Shown here: piece by piece, positions 54,938 through 63,807 of the stretch
Numbering within the stretch: position 1 is the first letter of the stretch
How the letters are laid out: every line of letters starts with the position of its first letter
Origin: Methanolobus profundi
Lineage (GTDB): Archaea; Halobacteriota; Methanosarcinia; Methanosarcinales; Methanosarcinaceae
Length of the DNA: 64,000 nucleotides
NCBI RefSeq assembly: GCF_900114835.1
Contig: NZ_FOUJ01000001.1
Coordinates: 868,001 to 932,000 of the forward strand
Direction: 5' to 3'
Program-made: the position numbers and the translations under genes
Notes under the pieces: generated by a model
What the model was told of the DNA's origin: nothing
The model's input: the letters and a program-made list of their open reading frames with translations, nothing else
The model's database searches: none

Positions 54938-56656
54938 TCAGTCCTCAACCTCTTTGATATACGGACCCAGTATCATGTCCTTGTAAGCTCCACCTGCAGG
55001 AACCTTTGGATACAGAACTTCTTCCCTGTCCGTGCAGATCTCAAGGAAACATGGTCCTTCTGAGTTCAGGAAGGCTTCCATGCCATCTTTTAGCTCACTT
55101 CTATCGGTTATCCTTTCTGCGAAGTTGAAACCGAATGACTCTGCGATATCAGCGAACTGAACATCCTTTGGTCTCTGTGTACCTGTTCTTTTTCCATCAT
55201 AAGCAGCATCCTGAAGATTCTGGACCATTCCATCGCTCCTGTTGTTGAGCATGAGTATCTTTATCGGGAGATCCAGTGATGCAATTGTGTGCAGTTCTCC
55301 AAGATTCATACGCAGGCTGCCATCTCCATCTATGGCTATGACCCTTGCTTCAGGGTTTGCATAATGGACACCGATGGATGTTGGCATGGAAAAGCCCATG
55401 GTGCCGAAGGAACCGGAGGTCATGAAGGACTTTGCCTTCTGCATTGGGAGATACTGGGCTGCAAGCATTTGATGGTTTCCGACACCTGTGGTTATCTTTG
55501 TATTGCTGTCAATATAGTTTGAGAGCAGGGACATGACCTCGGCAGACTGGATATATTCGGATCCCCGGTTGTAGTCCAGTGGCCAGGACCTCTTCAGGGA
55601 TCTTGCACGTTCCTGCCATTCATGGATGTTCAATGTGATGTTATGCTTTTTAGCGTAGTTGAGCAGGTCCATTATGGCCGTGGCAGCATCCCCGATGAAT
55701 GAGAATTTAGGTCCTCTTTCTATCTTTATCTGGTGCATCTTCTCGGGATTGATATCGATGTAAGCAACGTCAGTTCCTATTGCAAATCCGACCTTCTCAG
55801 CGACCCTGTCATCCCAACGGACACCGATGGCAAAGAAGAAGTCGTTCTCCTGGATGAGCATGTTAGCATAGGGTGTACCGAACATCCCGAGCATTCCAAG
55901 ATTGAGATCATCGTTGGCGTCGATGACACCTTTTGCCATGAGAGTGTTAACTGAAGGTATGCCGAAGTATTCGTTGAACTCACGGATGGCCTGGCTTCCT
56001 GCTTCTGAGTTAAGACCTCCTCCCAGATAGAGAAGCGGTTTTTTGGATCTCAGGAACATCTGGTAGAACTCTTCACACTGTTCTTCGCACAGGTGTCTGT
56101 CATCATGGTAGCTTTCCTCGAACCTCATGACGTTCATGTTCTGGTATTCATGCATCTTCTGCTGTTTATCCAGAGGTATGTCTATGACAACAGGCCCGGG
56201 TTTTCCAGACATTGCAAAGTAGTATGCATCCTTGACAATAGCCTCAAGATCATCACCATCAGAAACCAGCATGACCTTCTTTGCAGCTTCCCCGAAGATG
56301 CCCTCAACATTGATATGCTGGAAGGAGTCGGTTCCTATCTTATGCGCAGGGACCTGCCCTGCAAAGACAAGCAGTGGAATGCTGTCACCATAAGCATCGG
56401 CGACACTGGTCAGTGTGTTGGTGATCGCAGGTCCGGATGTGACTATGGCAACACCGACCTCGCCTGATGAACGGGAATAACCGGCTGCACTAAAAGCTGC
56501 TGACTGCTCGTTGGAATTGATAACTATCTCGATGTCACTCTTTTCAAGTGCATGGAAGACCGGCAGTATCGCCGCTCCGGTGTAACCGAATATTTGTTTG
56601 ACCCCAAGGTCCTCCAGACTTTTAACTAATATTTCTGCTCCATTCATTTCTTCCAT
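54938..56656 (-). CDS. ilvB: Acetolactate synthase large subunit-like TPP enzyme
   Basis: 572 residues with three TPP-enzyme domains: N-terminal GYTGAAILPVFHAL and NSNEQSAAF (catalytic Glu50), central FAD-type domain, and C-terminal TPP/Mg site DGDGSLRMNLGEL..NNRSDGMVQNLQDA. It condenses pyruvate to acetolactate, or with 2-ketobutyrate, for valine, leucine and isoleucine synthesis. No ilvN regulatory subunit is adjacent. GGAGA precedes ATG 56656. Upstream lies a valine-rich leader peptide and terminator hairpin, which fits control by branched-chain amino acids. Confidence 0.87.
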   Translation of the reverse strand: MEEMNGAEILVKSLEDLGVKQIFGYTGAAILPVFHALEKSDIEIVINSNEQSAAFSAAGYSRSSGEVGVAIVTSGPAITNTLTSVADAYGDSIPLLVFAGQVPAHKIGTDSFQHINVEGIFGEAAKKVMLVSDGDDLEAIVKDAYYFAMSGKPGPVVIDIPLDKQQKMHEYQNMNVMRFEESYHDDRHLCEEQCEEFYQMFLRSKKPLLYLGGGLNSEAGSQAIREFNEYFGIPSVNTLMAKGVIDANDDLNLGMLGMFGTPYANMLIQENDFFFAIGVRWDDRVAEKVGFAIGTDVAYIDINPEKMHQIKIERGPKFSFIGDAATAIMDLLNYAKKHNITLNIHEWQERARSLKRSWPLDYNRGSEYIQSAEVMSLLSNYIDSNTKITTGVGNHQMLAAQYLPMQKAKSFMTSGSFGTMGFSMPTSIGVHYANPEARVIAIDGDGSLRMNLGELHTIASLDLPIKILMLNNRSDGMVQNLQDAAYDGKRTGTQRPKDVQFADIAESFGFNFAERITDRSELKDGMEAFLNSEGPCFLEICTDREEVLYPKVPAGGAYKDMILGPYIKEVED

Positions 56657-56715
56657 TATAATTCTCCGTGAAAGAAACGATCCCGGCACAGGATACACTA
56701 TTCAGTAAAATGACC

Positions 56716-56774
56716 AAAAAACAGTGCACTTGAGCCAGAAAAGTTTCTGATTATCTTGCTCAAGCGTGTAGCAC
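56716..56774 (-). terminator. Attenuator terminator upstream of ilvB
   Basis: On the minus strand, GCTTGAGC (56765-56758) pairs with GCTCAAGT (56735-56728; 8 bp, one wobble). GTGC (56774-56771) pairs with GCAC (56727-56724) outside a 5-nt bulge. The loop holds a small CAGAAA/TTTCTG hairpin. Two bases later a U6 tract (56721-56716) completes an intrinsic-terminator layout 60 bp before the ilvB ATG. The last valine/leucine codons and the stop codon of the leader peptide lie within the 5' arm. Confidence 0.7.
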
Positions 56775-56828
56775 TACCACTACTACTGACACATTGCGTA
56801 AAGTGTTAGTTGTGGTAGAGTATGACAT
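56760..56828 (-). CDS. ilvB leader peptide (22 residues, five consecutive valines)
   Basis: ATG 56828 to TGA 56760. The peptide begins MSYSTTTNTLRNVS and ends VVVVVLHA. The run GTA GTA GTG GTA GTG CTA is the type of control-codon string seen in bacterial ilv leaders. TTTAAATA (56859-56852 on the minus strand) is centred about 27 bp before the ATG, so transcription would start at the ATG itself and no ribosome site is needed. A ribosome paused at the valine codons would cover the 5' arm of the terminator and allow ilvB expression when valyl-tRNA is scarce. Confidence 0.7.
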   Translation of the reverse strand: MSYSTTTNTLRNVSVVVVVLHA

Positions 56829-56851
56829 TAGGTTAGGATTGGGGGAAGTGG

Positions 56852-56859
56852 TATTTAAA
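56852..56859 (-). promoter_or_regulatory. TATA box of the leader-ilvB transcript
   Basis: TTTAAATA on the minus strand, 23 nt from its end to the leader ATG. The region between is C-rich (CCACTTCCCCC) and lacks another start signal. Confidence 0.6.
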
Positions 56860-56886: not shown

Positions 56887-59800
56887 TTAAGGATTGATAG
56901 GTATTTCCTCAATCAGTGCTTTAGCATAAGCCGCTGCTACTATGGTAGCATACTCATGCCAATCATCTGACTTGTGTGAATCACAATAATCACAAGTTCC
57001 ACGTACAATAAGATAACCAACATTTCCTTGCCATGCTGCATCTGCAACACCAGAACCTTCCATTTCTATTGCTTTGAGTTTAAATGTTTCTCTTAACTCG
57101 TCTCTAAGTTCTGAACTTTTTACGACTCTATTTCCAGATCCAATCGGACCAATAAATACGCGAGGTTGACCTTCAATCCTTTTTTTATCGATTGGATGAC
57201 TTGTAACAGTACCTGTAGAACAAAACAAAACATCCTTATCATCAGAAGGGCGAGTAAGACCTCTTTGTTTCAGTTGCTGCTCAATATAATTTATCCATGG
57301 ATATTTTCCAAAACTTTCATTCATTTCTAATAATCTTGCAACTTTTAACAAGTCAGAACTTGGAGGTCTTGGATGATGTCTATGCTCAACACGTTCGTCA
57401 TCTTCTTTTATTAGGTCGTATTGAATTACACCCATTTCACTTGACACAACAATATCTCCAAGACGAACATGATCATCAACTTTTTCAGCATATGGAACGG
57501 CTCCTGCAATACCTACCATTATAATATACTTAATACTTGGAAATCGTTCAATCATAAGAGTTGTACGATAAGTTGAATTATTATTTCCCATCCCTGCAAG
57601 TGCTAAAATTAAAGAATGTGTGCCACCATTAGTTGCTGAAATCTCACCGATGTCATAGTTTGCCAATCCTCGAGAAGAGTAAGTAATTTGTTGTGGATTT
57701 TTAATTTGATGTTTCATTGAAACATACTCTTCTGTAAGTGCAGTGACTATCCCTATCGTAGGTTTATGATCATTCAACAAATGTTTTATCTCTTCATTAT
57801 CTTCAACAGCCTGTTTAACTTCTGTATATATTTCATCCTCTTCAAAAATAGACTGTTTTTCAGTATCATCTTGCTTAAAATGATTGATAACTATTTTAGA
57901 ATAATATGGTCCAATGATTTGTGATAAAATACTATATTCCAATCCTTTCAATGCAGCATAATCATAGCCATGCTCAAATAGTTTCCTTGCACTTAGCCTT
58001 TTGATACCTTTTATTCTAAAATAGTCCAATAATTCAGTTTTAACCCCAAAAACAGCTCTGTCACAATAAAATAGTACTTGATCAGTAATATCACTAGGTA
58101 CGCCTTCCAGAATCATAATTTTAACTAATGCATCCCCTAACCACTCAATAATTTCTCCATAATTATAAATATCTGCTTCATCAATACCTTTATCTCCAAT
58201 ACCTTTTTCCCAATCTAATAAATATTGGAGTGGCTTTTCATCAATCCATTTTTCTAATATATTTGCAATAACAGATGCTTGATAAAATTCTACTTGCTCA
58301 GTTGGATTAGAGGGTTTATCAACAAGTAAACATTTAAGATTTTCAACTGTAATCCTTATACCTGCTCCATTTTTATCATAAGCTTTAAGCATAACATGTG
58401 ATGACATCAAAAGAGCATGGAAAACAGACCAAGGATTAAGCAAATGTAATCCTTTTCTTTGTTTATTATCAATTATTTTAGTTGATATTTGTTTAAACAT
58501 AATTGCTGTTTCACAGTCAATACATGAATCCGAAACAATTTTTCCAAATTTTGTAGAGATGAATATATTTTCTATTTTTTCAACAAAACCATTATCTTCT
58601 AGATAGTTCAAGTCTTCATCAATCATTTTTTTGAAATCGGATTCGCCAAATTCCTCTATGAAAAGAGTGTACCATAAAGTTGTTTTGAAATATTCATGGA
58701 CTTTATCCTCAACTATAAAATCATTTGAAGATATCAACCCATTTAAATTCATTCTCCTCTTACTTACATTTTTAAACTGCGATAATACTTTTTCCGGTTT
58801 TTTTACAGCATACCTACTGTGTAATAAACCATCAGTAACTTTGTCTTCAACTAAAACTGCATTACCTACTTCATGAAAACCTGGCCTTCCTGCTCTGCCC
58901 ATCATATTTAACACACTATTGACAGAAAGGGGCATATAAGCCATATCATCAGAACTCCACATAGTATTATCAGAAATTATTACAGTCTTTGCAGGAAGAT
59001 TTATACCTTGTTCTAATGTAGTAGTTGCTACAAGAACACATAAAGTTCCATCTAGAAAGGCATTTTCAATTTTCTCTCTTAGTATTAACTCGATTCCTGC
59101 GTGATGAAAAGAAATACCATTTCGAATACAATATAATAATTTATCAGAGAAGTTTGTTCTTTCTTCAATTGATTCATTCAATTCTTCTGCAAAAGGAAAT
59201 GAATCCTCATTATCGAACTTGTACCCACCAGAATCTATATCGGATGCTAATGCAAAAGCCAAATTTTCAGCATGTTTTCGACCAGTAGTAAAAACGATAC
59301 ATTGTTCCCCTTTACTTACAATACTTTTTATCAAATCTATAGAATTGCTGTATCGTTCCGCTTTTTCTTGATCAGTCCTTGGTGCTAACCTTCTTCTAAA
59401 TAAATTCTTTCTCAGTTTAATTTGAAAACTGGTTTTATCATTAAACCTTAATAAACCACCATTATTCAAAATACCTTTCTTAAGTGGAATTCTACGTTCT
59501 TCAGTATAAATAACCTCCTCTGCCATCCAATGTCCAAAGTCTTCAGGGTTCCCAATTACAGCTGAAAGTCCAATTATCTGAGCTGAACTATACTTCCGAA
59601 TAATCTCAGATACTGCAATTTCTAATGTTAGCCCTCTAGAAACGTCTTCTACCATTTGGATTTCATCGATTACAAATAAAGAGACTTCATTTAGAAATGG
59701 TTCATTATGACGCATGAGAGAGTCTAATTTCTCATTTGTCACAACTATTACTTGCTTATCCCCTAAATTAGTATATTCGTGTTTTGCATAGTCTCCAGTA

Positions 59801-60117
59801 CTTATCCCAACTGTTATTCCTAAATTTGAGAATAATTTTTTAAAATGCTCATATTTTTGCCTAGCAAGTGCCTTTAATGGAACTACATAAATTGCTTTCC
59901 CATTTTGTTTTATCACTTTATTAATAATAGCTAATAAAGCAGGGAATGTTTTTCCAGTTCCGGTTGGTAGCGATATAAATGTATTTTTTTCTTCAAAAAC
60001 ACATTTTTGAATGCATTCCAATTGTTCATCCCATATCTCACTATATCCACAACTTTTGAGGACATCTATAGTAGCTTCATCAAAAAAAGATATTAACTCA
60101 TCTATATTTTGCGTCAT
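56887..60117 (-). CDS. Ski2/Hel308-like helicase fused to a nucleoside phosphorylase domain
   Basis: 1,076 residues. Residues 1-560 are a superfamily 2 helicase: Walker A SLPTGTGKT (about 49-57), DEIQ box (151-154), LSAVIGNPEDFGHW, and motif VI MMGRAGRPGF. About 560-780 is a helical region. From about 785 comes a PNP/MTAN-type phosphorylase: IGIVTALTEEY, LALAGMGNNNS, VGIAGAV, EMEGSG (about 1018) and RGTCDYCDSHKSDDWHEYA. PNP-type domains of this kind act as ATP nucleosidases or other suicide effectors in bacterial antiviral systems. The gene is AT-rich and isolated in a repeat-rich stretch, as expected for a defence gene. The role is inferred. Confidence 0.87.
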   Translation of the reverse strand: MTQNIDELISFFDEATIDVLKSCGYSEIWDEQLECIQKCVFEEKNTFISLPTGTGKTFPALLAIINKVIKQNGKAIYVVPLKALARQKYEHFKKLFSNLGITVGISTGDYAKHEYTNLGDKQVIVVTNEKLDSLMRHNEPFLNEVSLFVIDEIQMVEDVSRGLTLEIAVSEIIRKYSSAQIIGLSAVIGNPEDFGHWMAEEVIYTEERRIPLKKGILNNGGLLRFNDKTSFQIKLRKNLFRRRLAPRTDQEKAERYSNSIDLIKSIVSKGEQCIVFTTGRKHAENLAFALASDIDSGGYKFDNEDSFPFAEELNESIEERTNFSDKLLYCIRNGISFHHAGIELILREKIENAFLDGTLCVLVATTTLEQGINLPAKTVIISDNTMWSSDDMAYMPLSVNSVLNMMGRAGRPGFHEVGNAVLVEDKVTDGLLHSRYAVKKPEKVLSQFKNVSKRRMNLNGLISSNDFIVEDKVHEYFKTTLWYTLFIEEFGESDFKKMIDEDLNYLEDNGFVEKIENIFISTKFGKIVSDSCIDCETAIMFKQISTKIIDNKQRKGLHLLNPWSVFHALLMSSHVMLKAYDKNGAGIRITVENLKCLLVDKPSNPTEQVEFYQASVIANILEKWIDEKPLQYLLDWEKGIGDKGIDEADIYNYGEIIEWLGDALVKIMILEGVPSDITDQVLFYCDRAVFGVKTELLDYFRIKGIKRLSARKLFEHGYDYAALKGLEYSILSQIIGPYYSKIVINHFKQDDTEKQSIFEEDEIYTEVKQAVEDNEEIKHLLNDHKPTIGIVTALTEEYVSMKHQIKNPQQITYSSRGLANYDIGEISATNGGTHSLILALAGMGNNNSTYRTTLMIERFPSIKYIIMVGIAGAVPYAEKVDDHVRLGDIVVSSEMGVIQYDLIKEDDERVEHRHHPRPPSSDLLKVARLLEMNESFGKYPWINYIEQQLKQRGLTRPSDDKDVLFCSTGTVTSHPIDKKRIEGQPRVFIGPIGSGNRVVKSSELRDELRETFKLKAIEMEGSGVADAAWQGNVGYLIVRGTCDYCDSHKSDDWHEYATIVAAAYAKALIEEIPINP

Positions 60118-60191: not shown

Positions 60192-60450
60192 TCATAACAT
60201 TGATAAACAGATGTCTTTTGACATCTCTTTCTTTACTAACCTTCCTCGCTTTACAGACCCCTTCAAACCAATATTGTCCTTATCTGCCTGAAAAGCCAGT
60301 TCATCGCTGAGCTTATGGTAGCTGTCAAACCTTTCCAGAATTATGATGCCATCGTCAATTCCTTTTCTGACGGCACAGTGTGGCTCATTCAAAGTGTATA
60401 ATTCTTGAAACGACAATTATGGAAAAGCTCATCAATATCGGAAATTTGGT
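60192..60450 (-). pseudogene. Fragment of the rsgA 3' end
   Basis: The minus strand reads [36 protein letters not shown], matching the last 65 residues of RsgA at 60860. Homology continues upstream (HNCRFKNYTL) but a one-base deletion near 60405 shifts the frame, and a zinc-ligand cysteine is lost. It is a decayed partial duplicate just downstream of the intact gene, separated from it by the MITE. Confidence 0.8.
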
Positions 60451-60859: not shown

Positions 60860-61963
60860 TCACTGTTCCTTTGACTTGACATATCTCCTTGCCACTGCTA
60901 CCCCTTTCCACTTTTTCTTCTCAACTCCCTTCAACCCGATCTCAGCCTTATCCGCCTGGAAGGCTAGCTCATCGCTGAGCTTATGATAGCTGTCAAACCT
61001 TTCCTGAGATATGATGCCATCATCCACTGCTTTTATTACGGCGCAGTGTGGCTCGTTGCGGTGTGTGCAATCCTTGAAACGGCAGTTTTGAGCTAGTTCG
61101 GCAATGTCGGAAAAAGTCCTGTCTATACCATCGGATGAATCTCCAAGCTGGATCTCACGGATGCCGGGGTTGTCGATGAATATCGTGCCGTTGGGGAGAG
61201 TGAAAAGCTGTCTTACAGTAGTGGTGTGTCTTCCTTTATCGTCATCTTCACGTACACTTAATGTCTTCTGGACATCGTGACCTAAAAGAGCATTGATGAG
61301 AGTTGATTTGCCAACTCCTGAGGAACCGACTAGAGCTATCGTTTCATCCGGGTTCATGAAAGGATCCAGCTTTTCCAGATCAGTACTTGTAAGAGCACTG
61401 AGAGTGATCACCGGAACATCATCAGCGATATCTCTAATTTCCTGTATCGTCTCTGAGACATCATCCGGCAGGGTCTCGACAAGATCGATCTTATTAATGA
61501 GAATAACAGGTCTTGCACCGGAAGAATGAACGATGGTGAGATATCTTTCAAGTCTTCGCACGTTAAGGTCATGTCCCACTGCTGTGACAATGAAGATAGT
61601 ATCAATGTTCGCAGCTATCAACTGTTCTTCACCTGAATCACCTGCAGAGCCTCTGGAAAGACAGGATGTTCTCGGGAGAATATCCACGATAGTGTATGAA
61701 CCGATATCACTCTGGTCAAGCAGTACAACAAAGTCCCCGACAACTGGCTGCTTGCCAACCTTACGCATAACTCCTGATATTGATGCCTGTATCTCACCCT
61801 TTTCAGTAAGGATATTCCAGACTGTCTTATGCTGGGTTGAGATCCTCCCAGGAATATATGGTCCATTATAAGCTGAAAAAGCAGATGCAAGTGAACTGTT
61901 CCAGCCGGGAATAACACATATGGCTGAAGTATCACTTCCTTTGTTCCTGCATTCACCATTCAT
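60860..61963 (-). CDS. rsgA: Ribosome small-subunit-dependent GTPase RsgA
   Basis: 367 residues with the circularly permuted GTPase order: OB-fold N-terminus, then [11 protein letters not shown] (G4), [16 protein letters not shown] (G1) and [11 protein letters not shown] (G3), followed by the zinc domain [15 protein letters not shown] (three Cys, one His). RsgA checks 30S subunit maturation in bacteria; it also occurs in some Methanosarcinales, probably after transfer from bacteria. Its 3' end is duplicated as a fragment downstream. Confidence 0.92.
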
Positions 61964-62403: not shown

Positions 62404-63807
62404 TTACTCGAAAGCAACTCCGTCTACATACAGTGTGTAACCGTTCAGATCGATGTTGTCGGTACTTCCACTCAGTTCTGTAACGTAGCTGTCACCGGTG
62501 AGGGTCCATGTGCTTGTGTCATCGATGCTTACAGAGAGCGCAGAAGCTGCTGTTCCGTCGGTGTTCATTGCACCGGTATATGATGTTCCGTCTGAAAGGG
62601 TCAGGGTCATTTCAGAGATGGAATCGACCATTATGTCACCTGTTGCAGTCTGCTCATTGAAGTCGACCTCACAGACACCGCCATTGGAACCTTCAGTTCC
62701 CCAGCCTCTTGAACCATCATTACCAGCGATCACAATAAGGTATGTGTCGTCAGCAAGGGTCAGGTCAACATTGTTCAGTGTGATGACACTTTCAGTATTT
62801 GTGACATAGAACATGTCCCCATTGTTAGATACAAGGGATCCGCCGGTCATTGTGAATGAGCTTGTTCCTACCTCTGCATCACCGGACATACTCTGGTATA
62901 ACATCACATTATGGATGTTCTCTGAACCTTCATCGCCATATACACCTTCCATATTTCCTGATACATCACAATTATTGATGGTTACTGAGTTCAGTCCTTC
63001 AACAACAACTGCCTCAGAGGTCTCAGCTGTAAGTGTTGCGTTGCTTACTGTAACATCTGCTGTACTGTAGATCGCAGGAGCACCTGAGCTTCCACTGGTT
63101 GTGTATGTTCCGCCATCAACGACCATTGTTCCGCCGCCACGGTCACTGCGTATTGCAGCTTTTACTGCTGAGAAGACATTAAGGTTGGTAGCATACATTG
63201 TTCCTCCACCGGCAACTTCGATACCGCCGGCATTTCCGCCAGTCACACTGATCTCGGTATCCTCTATGTAGATAGTTGCACCATCGTATGCAAAGACACC
63301 ATTGGAACCTTCAGTTGTAGCTGTGACCGTACCGCCATTGATGTAAAGGACGGAATTATCCAGTGCAAGGATCGCTGAGTTCAGACCATAGAAACTTGAT
63401 GCATCACTGCTTGATGCAGAACCATCTGTTTTCTCAACGCTTACATCAGTAAGTGTTGCAGTAACTTCATCTTCAGCTCTGATGGCGTTCTCATCGTCAT
63501 TTGTAGATGTGTATGTTCCTTCGGTCAGCTCTTCACCATCAGCCAGAACATATGCACCGGTCCCGGTATCTACGCTGGTAGAACCGCCTTCTCCACCAGG
63601 AGGTGTACCCATTTCACCATCCGGCATTCCATCAGGTGGGGTCATATTACCGTCCATTTCAACCGCTGATCCATCGTCCTGTGAATCAGATACATCAGTT
63701 GGATCCGAATCGCTAGCTGTTTGATCATCCTGGGTATCAACACAACCAGAAGCAAAAACCAGTAGTACAAGAAAGATCATTAATGTACTAAATTTTAAAA
63801 CATTCAT
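62404..63807 (-). CDS. Surface lipoprotein with right-handed beta-helix
   Basis: 467 residues. Signal segment with lipobox-like ASGC, an acidic Asp/Ser/Gly-rich linker (about 25-80), then a repetitive Thr/Val/Asn-rich region (for example LDNSVLYINGGTVTATTEGSNGVFAYDGATIYIEDTEI) typical of a parallel beta-helix. It is anchored outside the cell and may be an adhesin or polysaccharide-active protein; no catalytic set is clear. AGGAGGGA precedes the ATG, and a TATA box lies near 63842-63853. Confidence 0.82.
   Translation of the reverse strand: MNVLKFSTLMIFLVLLVFASGCVDTQDDQTASDSDPTDVSDSQDDGSAVEMDGNMTPPDGMPDGEMGTPPGGEGGSTSVDTGTGAYVLADGEELTEGTYTSTNDDENAIRAEDEVTATLTDVSVEKTDGSASSSDASSFYGLNSAILALDNSVLYINGGTVTATTEGSNGVFAYDGATIYIEDTEISVTGGNAGGIEVAGGGTMYATNLNVFSAVKAAIRSDRGGGTMVVDGGTYTTSGSSGAPAIYSTADVTVSNATLTAETSEAVVVEGLNSVTINNCDVSGNMEGVYGDEGSENIHNVMLYQSMSGDAEVGTSSFTMTGGSLVSNNGDMFYVTNTESVITLNNVDLTLADDTYLIVIAGNDGSRGWGTEGSNGGVCEVDFNEQTATGDIMVDSISEMTLTLSDGTSYTGAMNTDGTAASALSVSIDDTSTWTLTGDSYVTELSGSTDNIDLNGYTLYVDGVAFE

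Follow-up and report, generated by a model that had tools for sequence, protein, structure and literature searches.

Leader-peptide attenuation is a textbook bacterial mechanism of gene control that relies on the coupling of transcription with translation. In the translational attenuators of the erm and cat genes, three competing helices are arranged such that a ribosome on the leader frees a downstream start region, the stall being induced by a drug; tnaC depends on the nascent peptide together with free Trp. Bacterial ilvB-type elements include upstream open reading frames (uORFs) rich in branched-chain amino acids (BCAA) and Thr (PMC10272879). For archaea, definitive proof of tight transcription-translation coupling is lacking, and a review on the subject names no archaeal leader-peptide attenuator (PMC8116511); our search of the literature, mainly of open-access papers, found none either. 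Ribo-seq of M. mazei assigned 10% of 314 new small ORFs to 5'UTRs as possible uORFs, and acetolactate synthase is not mentioned in the main text of that study (PMC11456600).

The pattern described here, from comparison of archaeal sequences, indicates that a gene switch which senses translation, known until now from bacteria, is used by archaea as well. The window, meaning the whole stretch of 64,000 nucleotides of Methanolobus profundi that was analysed, carries an acetolactate-synthase-like gene with a short leader frame before it (Table 1), for which an earlier note had proposed a leader-peptide attenuator. Very likely, in our view, the leader belongs to a ribosome-mediated attenuator in which a leaderless ORF senses the charging of valyl- (and leucyl-) tRNA, and which acts through a hairpin with its U-tract (hairpin B) and a long-range helix (AS) on a second, probably acetolactate-selective acetohydroxyacid synthase (AHAS) gene. 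The 22-codon frame with GTA GTA GTG GTA GTG CTA near its end is exactly as the earlier note had read it, and in its peptide, MSYSTTTNTLRNVSVVVVVLHA, valine occupies codons 13 and 15-19 and leucine codon 20. The coordinates also place the leader stop codon within the 5' arm of a hairpin that has six U behind it, upstream of the ilvB-like gene, as had been claimed, with 103 nt between the TGA and that gene. The 3' arm of hairpin B lies 22 nt further on from the 5' arm, and the basal stem of the hairpin is formed by the leader's own Val-Leu codons.

Table 1. Features of the leader and of the synthase-like gene that follows it, in positions of the window.
Feature	Position	Strand	Remark
TATA box TTTAAATA of leader promoter	56852..56859	(-)	leader ATG 30-31 nt after TATA start in 41/43 orthologs
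Leader ORF, 22 codons + TGA, MSYSTTTNTLRNVSVVVVVLHA	56760..56828	(-)	ATG at 56828, TGA at 56762-56760; kept in 43/43 orthologs and in L068, L070, L072, L123
Predicted switch codons, Val -4 (GTG 56774-56772) and Leu -3 (CTA 56771-56769)	56769..56774	(-)	folding with masking
Helix A, 5' strand CUACCAC (leader Thr codons)	56812..56818	(-)	pairs with Val codons
Helix A, 3' strand GUGGUAG (Val codons)	56774..56780	(-)	pairs with Thr codons
Hairpin B, basal stem 5' strand AGUGC (last Val + Leu codons)	56771..56775	(-)	pairs with 56727-56723
Hairpin B, 5' arm GCUUGAGC, holds leader stop codon	56758..56765	(-)	100% of cells paired (43 rows)
Hairpin B, 3' arm GCUCAAGU	56728..56735	(-)	pairs with GCUUGAGC
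Hairpin B, basal stem 3' strand GCACU	56723..56727	(-)	pairs with AGUGC
U-tract U6, candidate archaeal terminator	56716..56721	(-)	T-run of at least 5 in 38/43
Long-range helix AS, upstream strand AGAAACUUUUCUGGC (hairpin B loop + start of 3' arm)	56734..56748	(-)	AGAAAC..UUCUGGC; helix-level covariation tests
Long-range helix AS, downstream strand GCCGGGAUCGUUUCU, directly 5' of ilvB Shine-Dalgarno	56673..56687	(-)	GCCGGGA..GUUUCU; helix-level covariation tests
Helix D, candidate anti-Shine-Dalgarno strand UCCUGUG	56687..56693	(-)	weak
Shine-Dalgarno GGAG of ilvB-like gene	56664..56667	(-)	Shine-Dalgarno-like motif in 43/43 orthologs
Acetolactate-synthase-like gene, 572 aa, Leu at Trp specificity position; ATG 56656	54938..56656	(-)	

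The synthase-like protein bears three TPP-enzyme Pfam domains and scores 510.8 bits against TIGR00118, just under the cut-off of 538. Its gene is a second, divergent synthase gene, with the canonical ilvB of the source genome located elsewhere (G000:C11). A Trp at the position of Arabidopsis Trp574 confers preference for 2-ketobutyrate, the substrate of the isoleucine branch. This position is occupied by Leu in the window protein and in all leader-type orthologs and by Trp in the canonical copies, and because of this replacement the paralog is expected to supply acetolactate to the Val and Leu pathways and is probably acetolactate-selective. Such a product fits the composition of the leaders, in which 31% of the residues are Val (5-9 in each leader), 10% Leu and 2% Ile, and which are thus leaders of Val/Leu and not of Ile.

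Elsewhere in the window, positions 56887-60117 of the minus strand encode a 1076-aa protein composed of a DEAD-box helicase, close to the HamB-type defence helicases of PADLOC, and a C-terminal PNP/UDP phosphorylase domain of a kind listed as a defence effector; a single-gene anti-phage system beside the attenuator is possible. The C-terminal sequence of a 367-aa GTPase-like protein (60860-61963, minus strand) recurs in an adjacent 74-aa frame (60192-60416, minus strand), apparently as a degraded partial duplication, and a secreted lipoprotein-like protein of 467 aa that contains right-handed beta-helix repeats is encoded at 62404-63807, also on the minus strand.

Of 112 genomes from the family, 43 have an ortholog of the gene (75-94% identity). 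They represent five genera, and Methanolobus, Methanococcoides, Methanosarcina and Methanohalophilus are among the named records. Alignment reveals the conserved short frame with runs of Val and Leu codons that the earlier note had expected in related Methanosarcinaceae, and the TATA spacing, the frame, the Val run and the hairpin are kept in every one of the 43. Leaders of 66, 69, 72, 75, 81 or 90 nt occur (22, 23, 24, 25, 27 or 30 codons), each change of length being in-frame, and the distance from the stop to ilvB varies from 92 to 131 nt free of a multiple-of-three constraint. Counted back from the stop, codons -6 and -5 are Val in 43/43, codon -4 is Val in 41/43 and codon -3 is Leu in 40/43. 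Downstream of the hairpin, the U-tract that had also been claimed is conserved, a T-run of at least 5 being present in 38/43 rows against 6.5% of background windows and a run of at least 4 in 42/43 against 21%; it is weak, either short or interrupted, in the remaining five of the 43. On checking, none of the sequence-level objections that the earlier note had raised to its own reading, such as loss of the frame or of its Val/Leu codons in relatives, holds.

A leaderless start had likewise been read from the sequence, and the near-constant distance between TATA box and leader ATG bears it out. Considered together with the distance of about 19-22 nt between TATA/BRE and start sites in M. psychrophilus (PMC5378194), this spacing would place the 5' end of the mRNA at the leader ATG or within a few nt of it. 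No leader ATG is preceded by a Shine-Dalgarno (0/43) and every ilvB ATG is (43/43), a contrast that lends good support to leaderless translation of the leader. The position of the promoter suggests that leader and synthase gene share one transcript.

The element pattern occurs once per genome, just 5' of the leader-type synthase gene, and was not found in genomes that do not carry this gene. Canonical ilvB in Methanolobus (L047, L048) has no such leader, and none comparable was seen at five loci with readable upstream sequence among other amino-acid genes of the window's own genome (PF00682 matches, trpE, ilvD), a check that covered those PF00682 loci with a start within the fetched stretch, two being outside it. 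Regional identity across clades was uninformative, given a high global-alignment baseline. From the alignments, the arrangement of the leader is confirmed to be far from chance. In a Methanohalobium MAG (L075; G461:C88 12636-14341), the synthase gene is broken by stops and the leader and hairpin are intact.

The RNA pairings were evaluated on the 43-row alignment, with clade-level repeats on 12 representatives. Covariation of the hairpin in relatives had been anticipated, and to the extent that the stem of hairpin B is paired throughout and is compensated at L002 (CUUGAAC:GUUCAAG) and L072 this holds, but a tree-aware test of single pairs (a G-test with substitutions re-placed along a FastTree tree) returned no pair at E<0.05. 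The base of the hairpin, AGURC:GYRCU, adjoins the U-tract, takes the form AGUAC:GUGCU in the Methanosarcina-type rows and is broken in several rows. Helix AS, the best-supported pairing and the one with the strongest covariation, is strongly suggested: pairing is stronger between its matched strands than between permuted ones (p=5e-5 for all 43 rows and 1e-4 for the 12 clade representatives, as against a best p=0.028 for control segment pairs that lack a proposed helix), in helix-level tests that were used after the single-pair null and whose shuffles leave some relatedness in. The outer half of AS (alignment helix 109-114:202-207) is paired in 96.5% of cells, with double changes at 3 pairs, and the structure made up of helix A and the two AS halves contains 16 double-change cells compared to 2.0 in shuffles, of which 0/500 reach 16. 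Variants of AS include GGAAC:GUUCC in L007, AGAAC:GUUCU in L005, GAAAUUA:UAAUUUC in L044/L045 and UUCGGGC:GCCUGGA in L020/L021/L024, and in all 43 rows the predicted duplex falls between -10 and -18.6 kcal/mol.

Helix A is paired in 98.3% of cells, with one-sided (G-U) changes only and a modest signal for matched over permuted partners (p=0.003 on 43 rows, 0.024 on 12 representatives); that the Thr codons are near-complementary to the Val codons may explain the Thr-Thr motif of the leader. Helix D is paired in 86% of cells and shows no double changes (p=0.35 on 43 rows, 0.02 on 12 representatives), and neither the start-codon stem (helix F) nor helix C (RCUGUU:AAUAGUG) gave a matched-versus-permuted signal. 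A helix scan produced no convincing conserved antiterminator (2:3) pairing upstream of the U-tract; the competing helix, AS, sits downstream of it.

To model the switch, all RNA as far as a ribosome's leading edge was masked in each of the 43 sequences and the remainder refolded; following bacterial footprints, this edge was assumed to lie 12 nt from the first base of the A site. Hairpin B dominates in the model that has no ribosome, where the mean probability of AS is 0.07, and masking of the 5' arm brings AS to 0.70. When codon -5 occupies the A site, hairpin B has a mean probability of 0.93; this drops to 0.46 for codon -4 and to 0.01 for codon -3, and AS climbs from 0.05 to 0.66 as the A site moves through the same codons. 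Computed in this way for the 43 folded sequences, hairpin B and AS are mutually exclusive, with a balance set by the position of the ribosome, and a flip from the hairpin to the alternative pairing is predicted at codons -4/-3. As these are Val and Leu, the stall-sensitive codons are those of the pathway's products. The earlier note had a ribosome stalled at the valine codons mask the terminator arm, and this stands for codons -4 (Val) and -3 (Leu), which flip the RNA, but with a 12-nt edge most of the Val codons fall short: those upstream are too far 5' to mask the main hairpin arm, and in the model stalls there break only the basal stem and helix A.

From the conserved features of the alignment, namely a translated-looking frame, its Val/Leu codons, a stop within the hairpin, the U-tract and helix AS, we infer stalling of the ribosome, termination, and an effect of AS on the translation of ilvB. 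With ample Val and Leu, the ribosome would reach the TGA and depart, upon which hairpin B would fold beside the U-tract and transcription would end there; in transcripts that escape, hairpin B would hold its loop and 3' arm off the segment 5' of the ilvB ribosome-binding site. With Val or Leu in short supply, the ribosome would linger on the Val run and, at codons -4/-3, cover the 5' arm and so block hairpin B. RNA polymerase would then read through the U-tract, and the freed 3' half of the hairpin would pair with the segment just before the Shine-Dalgarno to form AS, opening the start region. Read-through upon stalling is the likely first output, and the conservation of AS points to a second, on translation or mRNA fate. 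AS can form only after the U-tract has been transcribed and so cannot be an antiterminator, which makes a dual transcriptional and translational output likeliest. The sign of the putative translational step is deduced from physiology, as a shortage of Val should raise an enzyme that makes Val; in the computed folds that contain AS, the ilvB AUG is more open in 38/43 sequences, and the Shine-Dalgarno is on average less accessible.

It is possible, if doubtful, that the attenuator is purely transcriptional, as in the earlier note, with hairpin B and the U-tract as its sole output and the downstream helix incidental. The enrichment of U-runs over background and a basal stem of hairpin B that abuts the U-tract agree with this, as does the finding that archaeal terminators are U4-U7 tracts, for which hairpins are not strictly needed (PMC8716108). 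Since archaeal RNA polymerase can terminate without hairpins, control of termination by one is plausible, though unproven. The transcriptional account leaves AS, the best covarying helix, past the U-tract. With a weak tract in five of the 43 rows, and none evident in the Woesearchaeal L070, termination may be only part of the mechanism in some of these archaea. Shielding of the RNA from FttA by the ribosome is a further possibility; mutual exclusion of FttA and the ribosome was proposed, and not tested, in the FttA structure paper (PMC11616081). Of the earlier attenuator reading as a whole, then, the Val/Leu leader, the leaderless start, the stop in the hairpin and the U-tract stand, but masking by most of the Val codons does not, nor is the U-tract found everywhere.

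Somewhat less likely still is a purely translational attenuator in the manner of ermC or cat, in which the ilvB start region is uncovered or concealed as the RNA switches between hairpin B and AS, and the U-tract is no terminator. That AS is predicted for each of the 43 rows, and for L068 and L070 too, and that it competes with hairpin B and helix F for the same bases, would be expected of such a device, but the U-tract is conserved, the predicted accessibility of the Shine-Dalgarno does not rise, and helix F is devoid of covariation support.

A leader and hairpin like those of the Methanosarcinaceae are also found in four divergent archaeal relatives with 51-75% identity. Three of these are genomes of one Woesearchaeal order (L068, 68%; L070, 71%; L123, 75%) and the fourth is archaeon ADurb.Bin336 (L072, 51%); all are MAGs, and the three related Woesearchaeal genomes agree. 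The leaders of this group are MSNKSADYFLNLLVVVVVVAVLVA, MNNITNLQSVLLLLVVVVLLVA, MLNNSTNYIMTLLVVVVVVLIA and MQITNRTMRAFLLALVMLVVLVA. At L072 the stop is TAA and the hairpin CUUAAAC:GUUUAAG, a change from TGA that is compensated by a matching one in the 3' arm. Each of L068 and L070 has its own version of AS; the automated AS duplex of L072 is weak (-8.1 kcal/mol, no better than shuffles), and the hairpin and leader alone are claimed there.

BCAA-rich short frames also precede eight canonical-type synthase genes of DPANN archaea (L091, L092, L093, L109, L112, L121, L122 and L136), whose products are 46-52% identical to canonical ilvB. A scan of 57 loci for BCAA leaders gave 13 matches where dinucleotide shuffles predict 0.7, and these reduce to the 8 distinct new ones after removal of duplicates, family members and one doubtful match. 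No BCAA-rich leader was found at 16 weaker TPP-enzyme loci (L137-L152) or at six canonical loci of the window's phylum, and a Leu-rich frame at L108 was judged a chance match. The leaders at L091, L092 and L093 read MTRTTYHKTVAVVVVAVV, MAHSNKSMLVLSVLVLVLFVVA and MKNTTYNVNSVSVVVVVV, and in most of the DPANN leaders a hairpin lies at or just past the stop, which at L091 is located inside GUUUAAG:CUUAAAC. L109 and L112 have AAAAAAATCGAATTCTGGGAGTGC in common after different BCAA-rich leaders, which suggests a second conserved family of DPANN attenuators.

These distant leaders bear upon the view that the leader is a nascent-chain arrest peptide, whose ending VVVLxA before the stop would stall the ribosome upon binding of a small molecule and not through uncharged tRNA. 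The C-terminal residues of the leader are nearly invariant, as such a peptide would require, but the Ala codon and stop are accounted for by pairing in the hairpin, and the leaders of L072, L070, L068 and the DPANN archaea differ in sequence with their BCAA content kept, so that arrest of this kind seems improbable. Least credible is a functional micropeptide, or a by-product of an RNA-only element: the leader peptide is hydrophobic and part of its codons are constrained by RNA pairing, but the hydrophobic run is too short for a membrane span, the N-terminus is variable, indels are all multiples of three, the ORF is fused to the stop codon of the hairpin, and the frame is always 5' of an acetolactate synthase gene.

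Returning to the ribosome-mediated attenuator that senses charged tRNA, we favour on balance the broader view that leader-peptide attenuation by aminoacyl-tRNA supply is an established mode of control in archaea and no speciality of bacteria, works from leaderless ORFs in the Methanosarcinaceae, has recurred at DPANN AHAS genes, and acts on termination and translation by one RNA switch. As a conserved natural element, it offers a direct test of archaeal coupling and of hairpin- and U-tract-dependent termination, as well as of whether the ribosome guards RNA against FttA/aCPSF1, and it supplies a Val/Leu-responsive regulatory part for methanogens. Some Methanosarcina species, members of a genus with working genetics, carry the element.

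Amongst known systems, tnaC and attenuators of the Rho type have in common with the archaeal element the possibility that a ribosome at the end of the leader shields RNA from a termination factor, in archaea FttA/aCPSF1; no sign of a factor-loading site was seen in the element. The ilvB-OMG and Leptospira ilvB motifs (PMC10272879) likewise comprise uORFs rich in BCAA and Thr, the Leptospira motif having three or more Val codons in a row, but these are bacterial, and Rfam ilvB-type motifs give no match in the window at the gathering threshold or even at E<=10, nor at E<=1 in four relatives; the likeness appears, from sequence, to be functional, without homology at the level of Rfam. The erm and cat attenuators resemble the archaeal element as proposed here in their three competing helices and in a leader ribosome that frees a distal start, whereas the likely signal of the archaeal element is tRNA charging and its sequestration of the ribosome-binding site is putative. 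With the ilv/leu attenuators of bacteria (E. coli ilvGMEDA; C. glutamicum ilvBNC / ilvB-II motif; PMC10272879) it shares a short BCAA-rich leader ORF, hairpins and a U-tract upstream of AHAS. It is distinguished from them by an archaeal promoter and leaderless start, by an ORF whose control codons come at its 3' end, by a stop codon within the terminator-like arm with no antiterminator found before the U-tract, and by an extra long-range helix that reaches the ribosome-binding site.
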